A stretch of DNA of 64,000 nucleotides, taken from positions 1,736,001 to 1,800,000 of the forward strand of contig CP034120.1 of the NCBI GenBank assembly GCA_003856375.1, given 5' to 3'. The position numbers and the translations under genes were made by a program. The DNA is from Glaciecola amylolytica. GTDB lineage: Bacteria; Bacteroidota; Bacteroidia; Flavobacteriales_D; Crocinitomicaceae. A model generated the notes under the pieces. The model ran no database searches. It saw only the letters and a program-made list of their open reading frames with translations, and was not told where the DNA came from. Every line of letters begins with the position of its first letter. The first letter of the stretch is position 1. Positions 55,136 to 62,685 of the stretch are shown one piece after another.

Positions 55136-55417
55136 ATGAAACTTAAACAAGTTCTTTTATCCGTTGCATTTTTATTTGTAGTTCAAATTGCGAGTGCATT
55201 TACGATTCGTTACTACAATCAGGATTCTAAAAATTACACAATGGAAGTTCGTTCCAACGGGTCTACTCAAAAGGTTGAATTTACCAGCTCAACAACTGGT
55301 TCATCGTCCATTCAGACAAGTGCTTCTGAAGTTGAAATCAAAACTGAATGTGGTTGGGTGAAAGTAAAAGATGGTGCAAAAATCAGCATCAAAAACGGTT
55401 GTATCAAAATCGAATGA
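55136..55417 (+). CDS. Small secreted protein of unknown function
   Basis: A signal peptide (cleavage near IASAF) precedes about 70 residues of alternating polar/hydrophobic strands, Ser/Thr-rich in the middle with two Cys near the end ('TECGWVKVKDGAKISIKNGC'). The fold may be a small beta barrel. TATATTTA upstream is a weak -7 match. A terminator follows. No family recognised. Confidence 0.68.
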   Translation: MKLKQVLLSVAFLFVVQIASAFTIRYYNQDSKNYTMEVRSNGSTQKVEFTSSTTGSSSIQTSASEVEIKTECGWVKVKDGAKISIKNGCIKIE

Positions 55418-55433
55418 TCTAAGATAATCTTAA

Positions 55434-55478
55434 AAAATCCCCGGTCATTGAGAGTAGTCGAAATGCCGGGGATTTTCT
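55434..55478 (+). terminator. Terminator with REP-like loop downstream of 55136 gene
   Basis: AAAATCCCCGG pairs with CCGGGGATTTT and ends in a T-rich run. The loop, CATTGAGAGTAGTCGAAATG, is itself partly palindromic and like a dispersed Bacteroidota element. Confidence 0.78.
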
Positions 55479-55506
55479 GTTTTATGCCAAAATAAAACAG
55501 AAATAT

Positions 55507-55537
55507 TTTGCAGAATCAAAATTCGGTTCTACATTTG
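55507..55537 (+). promoter_or_regulatory. Promoter of the histidine operon
   Basis: TTTG (55507-55510), 19 bases and TACATTTG (55530-55537) match the Bacteroidota consensus exactly. The expected start of transcription, four to six bases after the G, falls almost on the leader-peptide ATG at 55542. Confidence 0.8.
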
Positions 55538-55541
55538 CCCC

Positions 55542-55586
55542 ATGAAAATGACACAATTACATCATCATCATCACATGCATCGCTAG
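55542..55586 (+). CDS. hisL: Histidine operon leader peptide, MKMTQLHHHHHMHR
   Basis: A 14-codon reading frame, ATG 55542 to TAG 55584-55586, with five histidine codons in a row (CAT CAT CAT CAT CAC) and a sixth two codons later. Leader peptides of this kind act by attenuation: scarcity of charged tRNA-His stalls the ribosome on the His run and shifts the RNA fold downstream. A second ATG (55548) lies in frame if the mRNA starts a little later. Its position 126 bases before hisG and after a promoter supports a working leader. This is too short to be found by length alone, but the His run and the terminator leave little doubt. Confidence 0.9.
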   Translation: MKMTQLHHHHHMHR

Positions 55587-55623
55587 GCGCTTTGGTGAGA
55601 TGATCGTATATCTATAAATCTTT

Positions 55624-55655
55624 AACCCGCTTGGCAATCAGGCGGGTTTTTTGTT
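55624..55655 (+). terminator. Attenuator (terminator hairpin) of the his operon
   Basis: AACCCGCTTG pairs with CAGGCGGGTT (55639-55648) around GCAAT, followed by a T run. The competing pairing GGTGAGAT (55594-55601) with ATCTTTAACC (55618-55627) would trap the left arm; GATGAT (55599-55604) can instead pair with the His-codon run. This is the standard anti-anti/anti/terminator arrangement. Confidence 0.88.
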
Positions 55656-55711
55656 GTCATTTTCATCACTTCATTTGATTCTTCCGATTGTCAGGCATTT
55701 CAAAAAAATAC

Positions 55712-56569
55712 ATGAAACGTTTGATTATTGCGGTCCAGAAATCGGGCCGATTACAAGAAGAATCTCTGGAACTGCTCAGAGAATGCGGATTGAAAGTAAA
55801 CTACCGCAACGGACAATTAAAAGTCATTACTTCAGATTACCCGGCTGAAATTCTCTTTCTCAGAAACTCGGACATTCCGGGATATGTTGCCGATGGAGTA
55901 GTAGATCTTGGAATTGTAGGTTCAAACCTATTGGAAGAGGAAGAGAGCGAAACAGAAGTGGTTCTGGGACTTAATTTCTCCAAATGCAGGTTGTCATTTG
56001 CCGTTCCGAAAAACTCAAAAATCCGTCAAACAGCTGATTTGGAAGGAATGCGGATTGCAACTTCGTACCCCAATTCAGTCAGTAAATTCTTGTCAGGTGA
56101 AGGAATTACGGCGGATATCCACACCATTTCGGGATCTGTTGAAATTGCTCCGACTCTTGATCTGGCAGATGCCATTGCAGACATTGTTTCAACCGGAAAC
56201 ACCTTGTTTCAGAATAATTTAAGAGAGGTTTTTTCTTTTCTCGATTCGGAAGCTGTTTTGATCAAAGGGAAACTATTTGATCCGGAAAAACAGGAATTGT
56301 TAGATCAGCTTGTGTTCCGGATTCAATCTGTTCTGGCGGCTAAAGAGTTCAAATACATTCTGCTGAATGCTCCGAAAGAGAAACTGGATGCGATTTGCAA
56401 TGTGCTTCCCGGAATGAAAAGCCCGACAATTCTTCCTTTGGCAATCGATGGATGGGTGAGTGTGCATTCAGTTGTGAAACAAAAAGAAGTCTGGGAAGTT
56501 GTCCGGAAGCTCAAAACCGAAGGAGCTCAGGGAATTCTGGTTTGTCCCATCGAAAAAATGGTTTCCTGA
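55712..56569 (+). CDS. hisG: ATP phosphoribosyltransferase, long form
   Basis: First step of histidine synthesis: joins PRPP and ATP. The long form has the C-terminal regulatory ACT-like HisG_C domain (about 215-285), so no HisZ is needed. Conserved: 'AVQKSGRLQEESLELLRECGL' at the start, 'DLGIVGSNLLEE' (about 70), and 'ADIVSTGNTL' (about 160). ATG 55712 gives 285 residues and starts at the family's usual place. The stop overlaps the next gene (TGATG). Confidence 0.96.
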   Translation: MKRLIIAVQKSGRLQEESLELLRECGLKVNYRNGQLKVITSDYPAEILFLRNSDIPGYVADGVVDLGIVGSNLLEEEESETEVVLGLNFSKCRLSFAVPKNSKIRQTADLEGMRIATSYPNSVSKFLSGEGITADIHTISGSVEIAPTLDLADAIADIVSTGNTLFQNNLREVFSFLDSEAVLIKGKLFDPEKQELLDQLVFRIQSVLAAKEFKYILLNAPKEKLDAICNVLPGMKSPTILPLAIDGWVSVHSVVKQKEVWEVVRKLKTEGAQGILVCPIEKMVS

Positions 56570-58902
56570 TGATGAAAACAATTGTAAATCCGGGACCGGA
56601 AGAACTTCGAACGATTTTGAAACGCCCTGAATTGGAAAGCACGGATCTTGAAACGACAATCGCAGAGATTTTCCGGGAAGTGGAGCAGAAAGGCGACGAG
56701 GCTTTGAAGCTTTTTGCCTTGAAATTTGATCAGGTTGAACTGGATTCTTTTGAAGTGACAGCAGAAGAAATCGAGCAATCGGCAAGTGTTTTAGATGAAG
56801 ATTTGAAACAGGCAATTCAAACCGCTGCTTACAATATTGAATTGTTTCATGCGAGTCAACAATCAATTGAAAAGGAAATTGAAACAACATCCGGAGTTTT
56901 TTGCTGGAGAAAATCGATTGGAATCCAAACCGTAGGAATGTACATTCCGGGCGGAACAGCGCCCTTGTTCTCAACGGTTTTGATGTTGGGAATTCCGGCA
57001 AGACTGGCCGGATGTACAAATCGTATTCTGTGTACTCCTTCAAACCGGGATGGAATGATCGACCCTGCGATTCTGTATGCCGCGAAAGTTGCAGGAATCA
57101 CGCGGGTTTTCAAGATCGGTGGTGCGCAGGCAATTGCAGCAATGGCGTTGGGAACCGAAAGTATTCCCAAGGCAGATAAATTATTTGGTCCGGGAAATCA
57201 ATACGTGACTGCAGCAAAACTGTTTGCTCAGAAATCCGGAATTCCGATTGATATGCCGGCCGGACCTTCAGAAGTGCTTGTTGCTGCTGATGAGACGATT
57301 TCTCCAACAATTATTGCTTCCGACTTGTTGGCTCAGGCAGAGCACGGAGTTGATTCTCAGGTTGTTTTTCTGACTGATTTCGAGGGTTTTGTTGATGAAG
57401 TGAACTCTGAGTTAACGAAACAACTTTCGGGTCTTCCACGGGCAGCTATTGCTTCAAAAGCTCTTGAAAACAGTATTGCAATCGTTGAAGACTCTGAAAA
57501 GTGGGTTGAAATCATCAATGAATATGCGCCGGAACACTTAATCGCAATGGGGAAATACGAAGATCAGATAGCTGAAAACGTGGTGAATGCCGGAAGTGTT
57601 TTTATTGGTGTGAATACGGCCGAAAGTTTTGGTGATTACGCTTCCGGAACGAATCACACCTTGCCGACGAATGGATTTGCCCGTGCATACAGCGGAGTTT
57701 CACTCGATTCGTTTGTGAAAAAGGTCACTTATCAACGTGTTTCAAAATCAGGTCTGAAGAATTTAGGTCCAACGGTTATCAGAATGGCAGAAGCAGAGAA
57801 ATTGCAGGGGCACGCCAATGCAGTTAAAACCCGGCTTGCATTGCTTCAAACATCTGATGAAAATAAACAGGATAATCAAAAAAGTATTGATAAATGGATT
57901 CGGCCTGATCTGAGAAATATTCGTTCATATACTTCTGCTCGTGATGAATTTGAAGGTATCGGTGAAGTTTTTCTGGATGCGAATGAAAATGGGCTTCTGA
58001 ATAAATATAACCGCTATCCTGATCCTTTGCAGCGTGAATTGAAGCAGGAAATTGCGGATGTAAAGGGAATTGCAGTTCAGAACCTGTTTTTGGGAAATGG
58101 CTCGGATGAAGTTTTGGATTTGATTCTGCGGCTGACAACGACACCATATCGCGATTCGATAGCATACCTGAATCCTTCTTATGGAATGTATTCCGTGCTT
58201 GCAAGGATGAATGCGCTTGAAACGAAAGAGATCTGCCTCGATAAATCCTTTTCGATCAGTACTTCTCAACTTTTAAATGAAGCTTCCGGGGCTAAAGTGT
58301 TGATCATCTGTAATCCGAATAATCCGACAGGAAATGTGATTCGCAAAGAAGAATTGCTCGAAATAGCCTGGAAATTCAAAGGTGTTTTGGTAATTGATGA
58401 AGCCTATGTAGATTTCTGTCCGGAGTTTTCTTTGGCAGATGAAGTAGAAAATTTCCCGAATTTGATTGTTGTACAAACGCTTTCCAAAGCTTATGCAATG
58501 GCAGGATTGAGAGTGGGAATGGCCATCGCGTCTGAAGATTGGATTGAAGCATTGAATCGCATCAAACCTCCCTACAATTTGAGCAGCCTGGTTCAGCAAA
58601 AAGCCATTTCAGTATTAAAATCAAACGATTGGCAACAGCTGAAATCGACACTTGTTTCTGAACGGGAGAAAATGGGAAAAGTGCTGAAATCGCTTCCTGT
58701 TGTTCAGCAAATCTTTCCTTCTGAAGCCAATTTTCTGCTGTTCCGGGTCAATGATGCCGACAAAATGTATCACAAGTTAATTGAAAACGGAGTCGTGGTT
58801 CGCAATAGAAGTACTCATTACAATTGCGAAAACACCTTAAGGGTAAGTATTGGAAATCCCGGGGAAAACGCACGCTTTATTGAAATAATGAAAGAATTAT
58901 GA
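56569..58902 (+). CDS. hisD: Histidinol dehydrogenase fused to histidinol-phosphate aminotransferase
   Basis: One uninterrupted 777-residue frame carries HisD (about 1-420) and HisC (about 435-777). HisD evidence: 'GIQTVGMYIPGGTAPLFSTV' region, zinc His in 'LLAQAEHGVDSQ' and the catalytic pair in 'NEYAPEHLIAMG' (about 310-325). HisC evidence: 'PYTSARDEF' near 445, 'NPNNPTGNVI' (about 580) and the PLP lysine Lys640 in 'QTLSKAYAMAGLRVG'. HisD makes histidine from histidinol in two steps; HisC makes histidinol phosphate. The fusion turns on an A6 run at 57878-57883: one more A would give separate, overlapping hisD and hisC genes. Start ATG overlaps the hisG stop. Confidence 0.9.
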   Translation: MMKTIVNPGPEELRTILKRPELESTDLETTIAEIFREVEQKGDEALKLFALKFDQVELDSFEVTAEEIEQSASVLDEDLKQAIQTAAYNIELFHASQQSIEKEIETTSGVFCWRKSIGIQTVGMYIPGGTAPLFSTVLMLGIPARLAGCTNRILCTPSNRDGMIDPAILYAAKVAGITRVFKIGGAQAIAAMALGTESIPKADKLFGPGNQYVTAAKLFAQKSGIPIDMPAGPSEVLVAADETISPTIIASDLLAQAEHGVDSQVVFLTDFEGFVDEVNSELTKQLSGLPRAAIASKALENSIAIVEDSEKWVEIINEYAPEHLIAMGKYEDQIAENVVNAGSVFIGVNTAESFGDYASGTNHTLPTNGFARAYSGVSLDSFVKKVTYQRVSKSGLKNLGPTVIRMAEAEKLQGHANAVKTRLALLQTSDENKQDNQKSIDKWIRPDLRNIRSYTSARDEFEGIGEVFLDANENGLLNKYNRYPDPLQRELKQEIADVKGIAVQNLFLGNGSDEVLDLILRLTTTPYRDSIAYLNPSYGMYSVLARMNALETKEICLDKSFSISTSQLLNEASGAKVLIICNPNNPTGNVIRKEELLEIAWKFKGVLVIDEAYVDFCPEFSLADEVENFPNLIVVQTLSKAYAMAGLRVGMAIASEDWIEALNRIKPPYNLSSLVQQKAISVLKSNDWQQLKSTLVSEREKMGKVLKSLPVVQQIFPSEANFLLFRVNDADKMYHKLIENGVVVRNRSTHYNCENTLRVSIGNPGENARFIEIMKEL

Positions 58903-60035
58903 AAAAGAAAATCTTGTTTATCGACAGAGACGGAACGATTATCAAAGAACCGGCGGGTTATCAAATCGATTCCTATGAAAAACTTTGTTTTTTGGAAGGT
59001 GCAATTTCTGTGCTGAAAACGATTGTTTCCTGGGAAGAATACGAATTGGTACTGGTATCCAATCAGGATGCTTTGGGAACGAATACTTTTCCTTTTGAGG
59101 ATTTCATTGGTCCGCACCGTTTGATGCTTGACACGCTTGCAAGTGAAGGAATCACTTTTCTGGAAGAATGTATCGACCGTTCTGTTCCGGAAGATCGTTC
59201 CCCGAATCGGAAACCGCGTACAGGCATGCTGTCAAAATACTTTTCGGAAGCATATGATCTGGAAAACTCCTTTGTGATCGGCGATAGATGGACAGATGTT
59301 GAATTGGCGAAAAATCTCGGATGCAAGGCCTTTTTGTTTCAAAACGGAGAAATCGAAGTGAGTTCTGAATTGAGTTATTCCATAACCGAATTAGAGACGC
59401 AGATCCAACGAAAAGTAAGCAATTGGGAAGAAATAGTGGTCAATCTGCGCATGGGAGTTCGTCAGGTTTCAATCCGTCGAACAACTGCTGAAACAGATTG
59501 CAGCATTACACTTGATCTTGATGGTTCCGGGATTTCCAGAATCGAAACGGGAATCGCTTTTTTTGATCATATGCTGGATCAATTGGCCCGACACGGTCAG
59601 TTGAATCTGGATCTCCGGATGAATGGTGACTTAGAGATTGACGAGCACCATACGATTGAAGATACTGCGTTGACACTCGGAATGGCTTTCGATCAGGCTT
59701 TGGGTTCAAAACGTGGAATCGAACGTTACGGGTTTTGTCTTCCGATGGACGATTGTCTGGCGACTTGCGCTATCGATTTTGGCGGTCGGGCTGAACTAAT
59801 CTGGGATGTGGAATTGAAGCGGGAATATATCGGTAAACTTCCAACTGAAATGATTAAACACTTCTTTAAATCATTTTGTTTTACAGCGCGTTGCAATATC
59901 TATATTCAAGCTTTAGGTGAAAATGAACACCACAAAGTAGAATCCATTTTCAAAGCCTTTGCAAAGACGATTTTAATGGCAAAACGCCGCTCCGGAAATT
60001 TTGATTTACTACCGACAACCAAAAACGAATTGTGA
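58899..60035 (+). CDS. hisB: Bifunctional histidinol-phosphatase / imidazoleglycerol-phosphate dehydratase
   Basis: N-terminal HAD phosphatase (about 1-170) with DRDGT at 8-12 and 'GDRWTDVELAKNLG' near 127; C-terminal IGPD domain (about 178-378) with the metal-binding 'HHTIEDTALTLG' (about 246) and 'EHHKVESIFKAFAKT'. The two steps flank HisC in the pathway. Odd: the zinc loop of E. coli-type HisB (four Cys/His ligands before RKP) is replaced by 'IDRSVPEDRSPNRKP', with Asp/Ser/Ser/Asn at the ligand positions. The start ATG overlaps the hisDC stop by four bases. Confidence 0.95.
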   Translation: MKKKILFIDRDGTIIKEPAGYQIDSYEKLCFLEGAISVLKTIVSWEEYELVLVSNQDALGTNTFPFEDFIGPHRLMLDTLASEGITFLEECIDRSVPEDRSPNRKPRTGMLSKYFSEAYDLENSFVIGDRWTDVELAKNLGCKAFLFQNGEIEVSSELSYSITELETQIQRKVSNWEEIVVNLRMGVRQVSIRRTTAETDCSITLDLDGSGISRIETGIAFFDHMLDQLARHGQLNLDLRMNGDLEIDEHHTIEDTALTLGMAFDQALGSKRGIERYGFCLPMDDCLATCAIDFGGRAELIWDVELKREYIGKLPTEMIKHFFKSFCFTARCNIYIQALGENEHHKVESIFKAFAKTILMAKRRSGNFDLLPTTKNEL

Positions 60036-60625
60036 TGAAAGTAGTGATCATAGATTATGGTGCTGGGAATATCTTTTCCGTTAAACAAGCTTTTCTCCGC
60101 ATTGGAGCAGAAGTTGTTTTATCAGATAATGAAGCGGAAATACGGGCGGCTTCGCATGTGATTTTCCCTGGAGTCGGCCACGCCAGATCTGCCATGGAAC
60201 GACTATCTGAAAGCGGTTTGAATAAAGTTATTCCGCAATTAACGCAGCCTGTTTTGGGAATCTGTCTGGGAATGCAGTTGATGTGTGACTTTACGGAGGA
60301 AGGAAATACGAGTGGCTTGGGGATATTCCCGGTACAGGTAAGGAATTTGGAAAAAATGCAAACTGGCAAACAAAAGAACTGTGCGCCAAATTATCCTATT
60401 CCACATATGGGTTGGAACGATGTGAAAACACAAAACAGAATCGATTCTTATTATTTCGTTCACAACTACGCAGCAGAAATCTGCTCGGAAACGATTGGAA
60501 CCACAGAATATCCGCTTCCGTTTTCCGCAATTTTAAAGAAAGACAATTTCACAGGAGTACAGTTTCACCCCGAAAAAAGCGGAAAAGCAGGAGTGGATTT
60601 ATTAAAACAATTTTTAGCATTATGA
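60035..60625 (+). CDS. hisH: Imidazole glycerol phosphate synthase glutaminase subunit
   Basis: Class I glutamine amidotransferase of 196 residues; it feeds ammonia to HisF. The nucleophile Cys is in 'GICLGMQLM' and the His/Glu in 'VQFHPEKSG'; 'DYGAGNIFSVKQAF' opens the protein. ATG 60035 overlaps the hisB stop (TGATG); an in-frame GTG three bases earlier is less likely. hisA starts inside its stop (ATGA). Confidence 0.96.
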   Translation: MKVVIIDYGAGNIFSVKQAFLRIGAEVVLSDNEAEIRAASHVIFPGVGHARSAMERLSESGLNKVIPQLTQPVLGICLGMQLMCDFTEEGNTSGLGIFPVQVRNLEKMQTGKQKNCAPNYPIPHMGWNDVKTQNRIDSYYFVHNYAAEICSETIGTTEYPLPFSAILKKDNFTGVQFHPEKSGKAGVDLLKQFLAL

Positions 60626-61350
60626 TAGCAATACCGGCAATCGATTTAATCGACGGAAAAGTAGTCCGACTGTTTCAGGGGGATTATCAACAACAAACGG
60701 ATTATAGTCTGGATCCTCTTGAATACGCCAGATCAATCAAACAAAACGGCTTGGAGTATTTACACCTTGTGGATTTATCCGGAGCCAAATCAGGAAAAAT
60801 AATTCACGATGAACTCTTGAAAAGAATCGTTCCCGAAACAGCATTGAAAGTCGATTTTGGAGGCGGAGTGAAAACCAAAGAAGATTTGGTGAAATTGTTT
60901 GAATCTGGTGCAAATCAGGTGGTTCTTGGAAGTTTATGCGTAAAAAATCCTGAAATGGTCGTTTCATGGATTAATGAATTCGGAACGGAAAAGTTCATTC
61001 TAGCTTTGGATACCGACGGAACAAACCTCAAAATAAACGGATGGCAGGATCAATCGGATCTGACATTGGAAAATGCAATGACGAATTTCTCTGCTTTTGA
61101 AAACCTGATGATTCTGACAACGGATATTCGTCAGGATGGGACAGGGAAAGGTCCGAACGTTGATTTGTATCGTTCTCTGGTTTTGCAGTTTCCTTCACAA
61201 AAATGGATTGCAAGCGGAGGAGTGGAATCGATTCAGGATCTGATTGATTTGAGAGAAAGCGGTTGTTACGGATGTGTTGTCGGAAAAGCTCTTCTGGAAG
61301 GAAAAATTGCGTTAAACGAACTAAAGAAATTCAACGATGCAGGTGTATAA
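60622..61350 (+). CDS. hisA: Phosphoribosylformimino-AICAR ribotide isomerase
   Basis: A (beta-alpha)8 barrel of 242 residues with the catalytic Asp pair in 'IPAIDLIDGKVVRL' (about 8) and 'ILALDTDG' (about 129), and 'GCYGCVVGKALLEGK' near the end. Isomerises ProFAR to PRFAR. ATG 60622 overlaps the hisH stop (ATGA); the frame also reaches back into hisH but without HisA features. hisF starts 14 bases inside it. Confidence 0.96.
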   Translation: MIAIPAIDLIDGKVVRLFQGDYQQQTDYSLDPLEYARSIKQNGLEYLHLVDLSGAKSGKIIHDELLKRIVPETALKVDFGGGVKTKEDLVKLFESGANQVVLGSLCVKNPEMVVSWINEFGTEKFILALDTDGTNLKINGWQDQSDLTLENAMTNFSAFENLMILTTDIRQDGTGKGPNVDLYRSLVLQFPSQKWIASGGVESIQDLIDLRESGCYGCVVGKALLEGKIALNELKKFNDAGV

Positions 61351-62092
61351 ACGAATTATTCCCTGTTTGGATATTCAAAACGGGAGAACCGTGAAAGGAG
61401 TGAATTTTGAATCAATCCGCGATGCAGGAAATCCGGTTGAATTGGCCCAATTGTATGCCGGACAAGGTGCAGATGAATTGGTTTTACTGGATATTTCCGC
61501 AACGAATGAAAACCGGAATACCTTCTTGCCGATTGTAGAAGCAGTTGCAAGTCAGGTAAACATTCCTTTTACTGTTGGTGGGGGAATCTCATCGCTTGAA
61601 ACAGCCAGAAAGCTTTTGCGCAGTGGAGCGGATAAGATTTCCGTGAATTCATCTGCTGTAGCTCGTCCGGAATTGATTTCAGAATTGGCAGAAAACTTCG
61701 GAAGCCAGTGTGTCGTTGTTGCTGTTGATATCCGCAGAACAACAAATGGCTGGACGGTATATACGCATGGAGGGAAAACCGATACCGGATTGGACGCTCT
61801 GAATTGGTGCGAAGAAGTGGTGAAACGCGGCGCGGGAGAATTACTGATTACATCGATGGATGGAGACGGAACCAAAAACGGATTTGCGATTGATTTTTAC
61901 CAAAAGCTTGAAAAGCTGGTTTCTGTTCCGCTTATAGCTTCCGGAGGAGCAGGATCTGTAGAGCATTTTGAAGCGCTTTTTACTGAAACAGCTGTCACCG
62001 GAGGATTAGCAGCAAGCATTTTTCACTTCGGAGAAATCCGGATTCCGGAATTAAAGAACGGATTAAAAGACACTATTAAAATAAGAATTTGA
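61337..62092 (+). CDS. hisF: Imidazole glycerol phosphate synthase cyclase subunit
   Basis: A (beta-alpha)8 barrel of 251 residues with Asp11 in 'CLDIQNGRTVKGVNF', and the second catalytic Asp in 'VVAVDIRR' (about 129). Uses ammonia from HisH to close the imidazole ring. Overlaps hisA by 14 bases, and its stop overlaps a TTG just before hisIE. Confidence 0.96.
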   Translation: MQVYKRIIPCLDIQNGRTVKGVNFESIRDAGNPVELAQLYAGQGADELVLLDISATNENRNTFLPIVEAVASQVNIPFTVGGGISSLETARKLLRSGADKISVNSSAVARPELISELAENFGSQCVVVAVDIRRTTNGWTVYTHGGKTDTGLDALNWCEEVVKRGAGELLITSMDGDGTKNGFAIDFYQKLEKLVSVPLIASGGAGSVEHFEALFTETAVTGGLAASIFHFGEIRIPELKNGLKDTIKIRI

Positions 62093-62097
62093 AAACG

Positions 62098-62685
62098 ATG
62101 AAATACGACGATATGGGATTAATCCCTGCAATTATTCAACATGCACAAACCAAAGAGGTGCTGATGCTCGGTTATATGAACGAGGAAGCTTTTGAATTGA
62201 CGAAGCAAACACAACGAATTACCTTCTTTTCCAGATCGCGAAACGAAATCTGGATCAAAGGAGAAAGTTCCGGAAATTGGTTGACTTTGGTTGACTGGAA
62301 ACTGGATTGCGATCAGGATTCTTTGCTTATTCAGGCTCTTCCGGCCGGACCAACTTGTCACAAAGGCACTTCAAGTTGCTGGGGAGAAACGTCATGCAGT
62401 GATTTTTCTGTTTTGGAGCAATTGATTCAGACAATTGACACACGCTTTTCTGTTCCGAAAGAGGGTTCTTATGTTCAGTCTCTGATTGAAAAGGGATTAT
62501 CGAAAATTGCTCAGAAAGTCGGGGAAGAAGGAGTGGAGCTGGTGATTGAAGCGATGAGAGATGAACCAAGATTATTCAGAGAAGAAGCTGCCGATTTGTT
62601 GTTCCATTATTTGATTCTGTTAAAAGCTAAAGACGTTGATTTTAAAGATGTTTTGGAAGTTTTAAAACAAAGATCTAAATTGTAA
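62098..62685 (+). CDS. hisI: Bifunctional phosphoribosyl-AMP cyclohydrolase / phosphoribosyl-ATP pyrophosphatase
   Basis: Steps 2 and 3 of the pathway in one chain (hisIE). HisI: 'GPTCHKGTSSCW' (about 85-96) with the zinc cysteines, and 'TQRITFFSRSRNEIWIKGE'. HisE: 'KVGEEGVELVIEAMR' (about 140-155) and 'EEAADLLFHYLILLKAK'. ATG 62098 gives 195 residues; a TTG nine bases earlier overlaps the hisF stop and is possible. It completes a set covering all steps from PRPP to histidine. Confidence 0.95.
   Translation: MKYDDMGLIPAIIQHAQTKEVLMLGYMNEEAFELTKQTQRITFFSRSRNEIWIKGESSGNWLTLVDWKLDCDQDSLLIQALPAGPTCHKGTSSCWGETSCSDFSVLEQLIQTIDTRFSVPKEGSYVQSLIEKGLSKIAQKVGEEGVELVIEAMRDEPRLFREEAADLLFHYLILLKAKDVDFKDVLEVLKQRSKL

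Follow-up and report, generated by a model that had tools for sequence, protein, structure and literature searches.

A probable ribosome-mediated his attenuator with a predicted near-leaderless leader peptide in a Fluviicola genome

The stretch 55507-55711 of the window (the whole 64,000-nucleotide stretch of DNA that was analysed) raises the question of whether a his operon in the Bacteroidota can be controlled by a leader peptide that is read from the very 5' end of its mRNA. Ribosome-mediated attenuation is a classical mechanism of his regulation; in hisL, as in the leader described here, a short leader peptide with a run of His codons and RNA strands that pair as 1:2, 2:3 and 3:4 are followed by a terminator before hisG. 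To our knowledge, Bacteroidota make no use of Shine-Dalgarno sites, and the coupling of transcription to translation has hardly been tested in this phylum. The first-pass annotation of this DNA had proposed a his attenuator, and the analysis upheld its pause pairing, its terminator and its near-leaderless start but found its antiterminator to be incomplete. Our reading is that the window element is probably a ribosome-mediated transcription attenuator of the his operon, with a leader mRNA that begins at, or within about 1 nt of, the start codon of the leader peptide.

Profile matches place a complete his operon (55712-62685) directly behind the leader stretch, with the following genes.

55712-56569, + strand: hisG with its C-terminal domain (TIGR00070 and TIGR03455 above cut-off)
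56569-58902, + strand: hisD-hisC as a single open frame, start approximate (TIGR00069 and TIGR01141 above cut-off in one 835-residue frame)
58899-60035, + strand: hisNB, bifunctional (NF003937 above cut-off)
60032-60625, + strand: hisH (TIGR01855 above cut-off)
60622-61350, + strand: hisA, start approximate (TIGR00007 above cut-off)
61337-62092, + strand: hisF (TIGR00735 above cut-off)
62089-62685, + strand: hisIE (NF002747 above cut-off)

The nearest relatives of the HisG protein are encoded on Fluviicola or Flavobacteriales contigs (79-81% identity), and the genome carrying the window is counted within Fluviicola here. The frame at 56569-58902 looks like a real HisD-HisC fusion. The hisD/hisC junction is read through in frame in five of 11 other Fluviicola loci, namely those in which a motif located the junction (L008, L010, L011, L012 and L017). 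An inverted repeat with a long loop, AATCCCCGG...CCGGGGATT, was seen by eye at 55436-55474, between the upstream 93-codon gene and the his promoter; it is absent from the output of the terminator scan.

The leader peptide and its sensor codons are as follows.

55542-55586, + strand: leader ORF MKMTQLHHHHHMHR with its stop, 14 codons, with a second in-frame ATG at 55548 (sequence; a His-rich leader is present in 12 of 12 Fluviicola)
55560-55574, + strand: five consecutive His codons, the sensor and strand 1 (sequence; chance control)

A sixth His codon follows at 55578-55580 and the stop codon lies at 55584-55586, so that the five His codons in a row plus one described in the first-pass annotation are indeed present in MKMTQLHHHHHMHR. 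The spread of such leaders was assessed in the 500 nt before hisG in 130 Bacteroidota loci from the window's own genome, 29 relatives and 100 further genomes (97 of 250 phylum matches and three from the same search as the relatives), a sample that leans towards HisG proteins close to that of the window. An ORF with at least three His in six codons occurs upstream of hisG in 121 of the 130 loci, compared with one of 130 reverse strands and 72 of 2600 dinucleotide shuffles, the chance control being confined to the last 350 nt before hisG; a few of the 121 may be chance occurrences at this threshold. With at least four His in six codons the figures are 106 of 130 loci, none of 130 reverse strands and five of 2600 shuffles. 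The nine loci in which no ORF reached three His are G088, G092, G191, G339, G239, G296, G153, G134 and G223. Loss of the His run in close relatives, which had been set beforehand as an observation that would count against an attenuator, was looked for and did not occur: the run is kept in all 12 Fluviicola.

The promoter ahead of this ORF comprises the following elements.

55507-55510, + strand: -33 element TTTG, 19 nt ahead of the -7 element (sequence)
55530-55537, + strand: -7 element TACATTTG of a Bacteroidota housekeeping promoter (sequence; consensus TANNTTTG or TAHHTTTG at -12 to -5)
55542, + strand: predicted transcription start at the A of the leader ATG, giving a 5' UTR of 0 nt (about +/-1) from the published spacing of 4-5 nt between -7 element and start

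The consensus promoter of the first-pass annotation was thus located, and it fits the Bacteroidota consensus TTTG/TANNTTTG. A generic sigma-70 scan listed nothing near the leader, the TACATTTG promoter included, as is expected for a promoter of the Bacteroidota type. In flavobacterial promoters the -7 element occupies positions -12 to -5 and transcription starts 4 or 5 nt past it (PMC6847099, PMC9723704). The window ATG lies 4 nt past the -7 element, which would place +1 on the A at 55542; a spacing of 5 nt would move it to the following base. Whether an mRNA is leaderless, in the sense of starting at or within a few nucleotides of its start codon, is therefore predicted here from the geometry of the -7 box. 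In the his leaders of 12 Fluviicola, which are related and not independent, the distance from box to ATG is 4 nt in ten and 5 nt in two, in keeping with the near-leaderless start proposed earlier at ATG 55542, which stands as a prediction. One of the two 5-nt cases, G004, has the box TAGTTTTG with a disfavoured G, and is left out under the strict box TAHHTTTG; a G at that position of the -7 element is virtually absent from the promoters of F. johnsoniae (PMC6847099). In G001 a longer in-frame leader start, lacking a box, also exists.

The background was taken from 464 kb of the window's own genome, where mechanical calling gave 332 ORFs with 110 codons or more; 69 of these have a box within 60 nt. 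The box lies 3-6 nt from the first ATG in ten of these 69, and the distances have a main mode near 14-20 nt and a separate peak at 4-5 nt. Genes laid out without a leader form a genuine minority class in this genome, and the attenuator leaders are among them. A Fisher test of this layout gives 9e-9, an overstatement because the 12 Fluviicola species are related.

Two rival explanations concern this start. The first is an ordinary leadered attenuator, in which the true promoter would lie upstream (for example in the gap 55417-55530) and TACATTTG would be a chance match. Longer leaders predominate among flavobacterial mRNAs, with 87% exceeding 10 nt in F. johnsoniae (PMC6847099) and 5.5% leaderless in F. 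psychrophilum (PMC9723704), but a box placed exactly 4-5 nt from the ATG in 12 of 12 Fluviicola, where the chance of a box at such spacing is about 0.0007 per start, and a TTG 18 or 19 nt before the box in the same 12, make this explanation very improbable. The second is that the attenuator is the same but not leaderless in use: transcription would begin one base later, or the ribosome would pass over the first ATG, and translation would begin at ATG 55548 behind a leader of 5-6 nt. Both spacings of 4 and 5 nt are published (PMC6847099), and a 5-nt spacing would deprive the mRNA of its first ATG and leave the second to be used. All six readable trp leaders and 11 of the 12 Fluviicola his leaders (G003 is the exception) have a second in-frame ATG inside the first seven codons, which may reflect chance or a backup start. 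Near-leaderless his leaders from other families, for example those of G054 (MKLNIQKHHHFFYS) and G041 (MIFSTQHFHHHLSGTGKG), have no second ATG, and we regard initiation at 55548 as unlikely. Initiation at the 5'-terminal ATG 55542 remains the preferred reading.

Downstream of the sensor codons, the leader contains the strands of three helices.

55558-55608, + strand: 1:2 hairpin of the His run with GGUGAGAUGAU, the pause or protector hairpin (minimum-energy fold)
55582-55589, + strand: antiterminator 5' strand GCUAGGCG (strand 2), over the Arg codon and stop and resembling the terminator 3' strand (covariation on 54 leaders; masking model)
55594-55601, + strand: GGUGAGAU, the inner portion of strand 2 (pairs with 55618-55627 inside the outer helix; 12 Fluviicola compared)
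55618-55627, + strand: AUCUUUAACC, partner in the inner helix (pairing in 12 Fluviicola; fold)
55628-55635, + strand: antiterminator 3' strand CGCUUGGC (strand 3), overlapping the terminator 5' strand (covariation)
55624-55648, + strand: intrinsic terminator stem AACCCGCUUG/CAGGCGGGUU, strands 3:4 (terminator scan; pairing in 54 leaders)
55647-55652, + strand: U tract (sequence)

The full window leader folds into the 1:2 hairpin and the terminator (z = -3.7; two of 200 shuffles fold as well), and the pairing of GATGAT with the His run that had been noted earlier is part of this minimum-energy fold. The terminator was likewise recovered, by the scan, at 55624-55648 with its U tract. When strands 2 and 3 are folded alone (55582-55640) they form the antiterminator (-16.2 kcal/mol, z = -2.2), in which an outer helix GCUAGGCG/CGCUUGGC adjoins an inner helix GGUGAGAU/AUCUUUAACC.

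The helices were compared in 54 leaders that were chosen by eye for an alignable layout and aligned with MAFFT without structure; the outer helix had already been noticed on some of these leaders before the counting. In this set pairing holds in 99.6% of 538 cells for the terminator helix and in 96.0% of 430 cells for the outer helix. Sliding the partner of the outer helix by 1-3 columns lowers its pairing to 24-44%. Changes on both sides were found in 44 cells of the outer helix, compared with a shuffled mean of 13.6 and at most six in slid copies, and its covariation is 0.424 as against at most 0.133 when slid. The number of its pairs with a double change (four) is not above that of the shuffles, 94 of 500 of which reach four. 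The antiterminator and the terminator are mutually exclusive, as the strand 55628-55633 is common to both and both helices covary; strand 2 (AGGCG) closely resembles strand 4 (AGGCGGG), and the two compete for pairing with strand 3. Leaders of family f17 have strand 2 inside the coding frame, which accounts for a repeated peptide ending in ...CSQA.

The inner helix is paired in 90.6% of cells in the 12 Fluviicola, with a single double change; covariation gave it no support, and its last two pairs are broken in three and six of the 12 leaders. Within the 12 Fluviicola alone neither half of the antiterminator covaries, and 289 of 500 shuffles do as well as the two helices combined. The inner half of the antiterminator rests on folding and conservation. 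The antiterminator of the first-pass annotation, GGTGAGAT/ATCTTTAACC, can pair, but it is the inner half only and misses the outer covarying helix GCUAGGCG/CGCUUGGC. As the whole antiterminator it was rejected for want of a covariation signal and was retained as the inner half of the longer helix.

To model the effect of a ribosome, the RNA was hidden as far as 12 nt beyond the first base of the codon in the A site (an assumed footprint) and the nascent RNA was folded to 55638. Folding with and without a masking ribosome had been suggested with the earlier annotation, and in these models the position of the ribosome selects the fold. For the window, the antiterminator has a probability of 1.00 while any of His7-His10 occupies the A site; this falls to 0.54 at the fifth His and to 0.00 from Met12 to the stop. 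Across the 54 leaders, a stall at the first His-His pair gives the antiterminator a modelled probability of at least 0.5 in 53 (the exception is L048), and a ribosome at the stop gives the antiterminator in none and the terminator in all 54. When the complete window leader is folded at equilibrium, the terminator prevails whichever mask is applied, which means that the switch would work only if the choice between folds is made while the RNA is being transcribed. With no ribosome in the model, the nascent antiterminator is favoured in ten of 12 Fluviicola, the window (0.76) included. In stepwise folding the 1:2 hairpin is present from about nt 60-65 onwards, and the antiterminator does not appear until about nt 95; with the hairpin appearing some 30 nt earlier, the reading of the ribosome-free value as a default-on state was dropped. 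Which fold wins without a ribosome is a matter of kinetics.

A third rival explanation is that attenuation is not ribosome-mediated and that a T-box, a riboswitch or a protein-binding attenuator is at work, with the His-rich ORF there by coincidence. Such a device would also be compatible with the terminator and the alternative fold taken by themselves, but His-rich ORFs accompany 121 of 130 loci, the antiterminator strand is blocked in all 54 modelled leaders when the ribosome stands at the stop, and Rfam 15 gave no family over the gathering score in the window stretch (14 weaker matches) or in 20 sampled his loci, including the window's own (L007); we consider this explanation the most improbable of those discussed. 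RF00514 (His_leader, threshold 49 bits) scored at best 17.4 bits, for 55429-55554 of the opposite strand, followed by 15.0 bits for 55420-55481, and exceeded its threshold in none of the 20 sampled loci. Identification of the leader as Rfam Trp_leader, His_leader or T-box was rejected, as none matched over threshold in the window stretch or the 20 loci.

The ribosome-mediated attenuator that we prefer would operate as follows. RNA polymerase would start at about 55542, and a ribosome would load on the 5'-terminal AUG without a Shine-Dalgarno site and trail the polymerase. When charged His-tRNA is scarce, the ribosome would stall on the first His codons (55560-55571) and hide strand 1; GCUAGGCG...GGUGAGAU would then be free to capture AUCUUUAACC-CGCUUGGC as the antiterminator, the terminator would be blocked and the his genes would be transcribed. 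When His-tRNA is charged, the ribosome would reach the stop at 55584-55586 and cover GCUAGGCG, leaving strand 3 to pair with CAGGCGGGUU as the terminator, and transcription would end near 55652. If no ribosome loads, the His run would pair with GGUGAGAUGAU about 30 nt before strand 3 is complete, which should again favour termination.

The leaderless layout extends to a second operon of the same genome. Its trpE-like gene has a Trp-Trp leader, MIFQQTMKFWWCLYPKKVADA, with a start codon 4 nt past the -7 box, and the same distance is found in all six Fluviicola trpE-like loci with a readable upstream region. In G003 one trpE-like match had too little upstream sequence and one was left out of the readable set; the search in the other Fluviicola (G001, G002, G005, G006, G008, G010 and G013) gave distant matches or none. 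A terminator-like repeat was seen before trpE in the trpE-like locus L137:1311-1440 and in the loci of five other Fluviicola. Of ten trpE loci read from outside the genus, nine have a Trp-Trp leader ORF ahead of the gene, with a box at 5-10 nt in six of these. A genome-wide pattern for similar layouts returned no matches, its gap limits being too short to fit even the his leader.

Among the his loci, 81 of 130 have a strict box TAHHTTTG within 3-40 nt of the start, at 3-6 nt in 23, at 7-10 nt in 16 and at more than 10 nt in 42; no strict box was found within 3-40 nt in 40 of the 121 loci with a His-rich ORF. Distances of 4-5 nt outside Fluviicola occur in families f1 (G024), f7 (one locus), f10 (two), f15 (one), f21 (one) and f34 (five, mostly with GTG starts), some of the ORF calls outside Fluviicola being weak. 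In f17, the largest sampled family, 25 of 26 loci have a box 17-35 nt upstream or no strict box. The idea of leaderless attenuation peptides in the Bacteroidota therefore applies to Fluviicola and a few other families but not to the phylum as a rule: distances range from 4 to 35 nt, f17 is built otherwise, and a phylum-wide rule was ruled out. We propose, tentatively, that Fluviicola and, separately, several other Bacteroidota families may have built his and trp attenuators as leaderless mRNAs, on which the ribosome would load as soon as the 5'-terminal AUG leaves the polymerase, so that the switch would report the capacity for leaderless (70S-type) initiation as well as charged tRNA.

Other amino-acid genes of the genome gave further observations. 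The region upstream of a metX-like gene (L190 and L191-L201; about 1416670-1416957 of G000:C1 in the own genome, outside the window) contains a SAM riboswitch: of 17 loci scanned, 16 reach or exceed the gathering score of RF00162, L194 being the exception. The gene itself matches TIGR01392 below cut-off. Behind the riboswitch, all 12 Fluviicola loci have an ORF of some 30-55 codons that ends in three to six consecutive Cys codons (two with a final Arg). In eight of the 12 loci these codons can form the same 11-bp duplex (Watson-Crick plus GU) with the sequence just before the next gene start, a count made without a chance control. The Cys ORF is a candidate cysteine-responsive translation attenuator; as a leader of the same kind as that of his it was rejected, the combination of SAM riboswitch and Cys ORF being another kind. 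The own genome (G000) has his, trpE-like and homoserine dehydrogenase genes and gave no match to dihydroxy-acid dehydratase (IlvD, PF00920) or prephenate dehydratase (PF00800). Its gene content hints at a possible auxotrophy for branched-chain amino acids and phenylalanine.

The window leader shares the principle of attenuation with hisL of E. coli and Salmonella (PMC9413887), and differs in matching no RF00514 model, in its predicted start at the mRNA 5' end, in having no Shine-Dalgarno site and in belonging to the Bacteroidota. The trpL transcript of Sinorhizobium meliloti (rnTrpL/peTrpL) likewise begins with the ATG of a 14-codon leader ORF (PMC7298713), although it responds to tryptophan, belongs to an alphaproteobacterium and is another RNA, and its released RNA and peptide have trans-acting roles as well. 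Streptomyces lividans has leaderless attenuator peptides in which the regulatory amino acid is enriched (PMC8079986); it differs in phylum and promoters, and the relevant passages of that paper mention no His leader. Poly-Cys leaderless sORFs occur in mycobacteria (PMC13236596), again with another phylum and other promoters, and are described there as translation attenuation. Within the Bacteroidota, amino-acid operon leaders of Flavobacterium psychrophilum show clues of leader-peptide attenuation (PMC9723704), the passage in question giving no operon, sequence or leaderless status, and Bacteroides thetaiotaomicron has sORFs reminiscent of leader peptides (PMC7366714). In its relevant sections, a survey of his genes across the superphylum published in 2021 brings up attenuation a single time, with reference to enterobacteria (PMC8305728), and a further account places leader-peptide systems in the Proteobacteria and Actinobacteria, with Firmicutes added (PMC2965389). 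Our literature search found no title or abstract on a leaderless his or trp attenuator in the Bacteroidota; subscription papers lay largely outside it, and the 2010 survey by Lopatovskaya et al. may cover the phylum. The earlier description of such peptides in the Bacteroidota as little studied is fair, but they are not unknown, given the clues in F. psychrophilum (PMC9723704). Attenuation of his and leaderless attenuator peptides elsewhere are known; the points of interest here are the 5'-terminal start and the wide spread.

Taken together, the leaders point to an RNA family that no Rfam 15 model recognises in the loci tried. An attenuator that reads the position of a ribosome works only if ribosomes follow RNA polymerase closely, and the presence of a His-rich leader in 121 of 130 loci would make transcription-translation coupling in the Bacteroidota directly testable. 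The leaderless version would be a natural assay for initiation at a 5'-terminal AUG in bacteria that do without Shine-Dalgarno sites.
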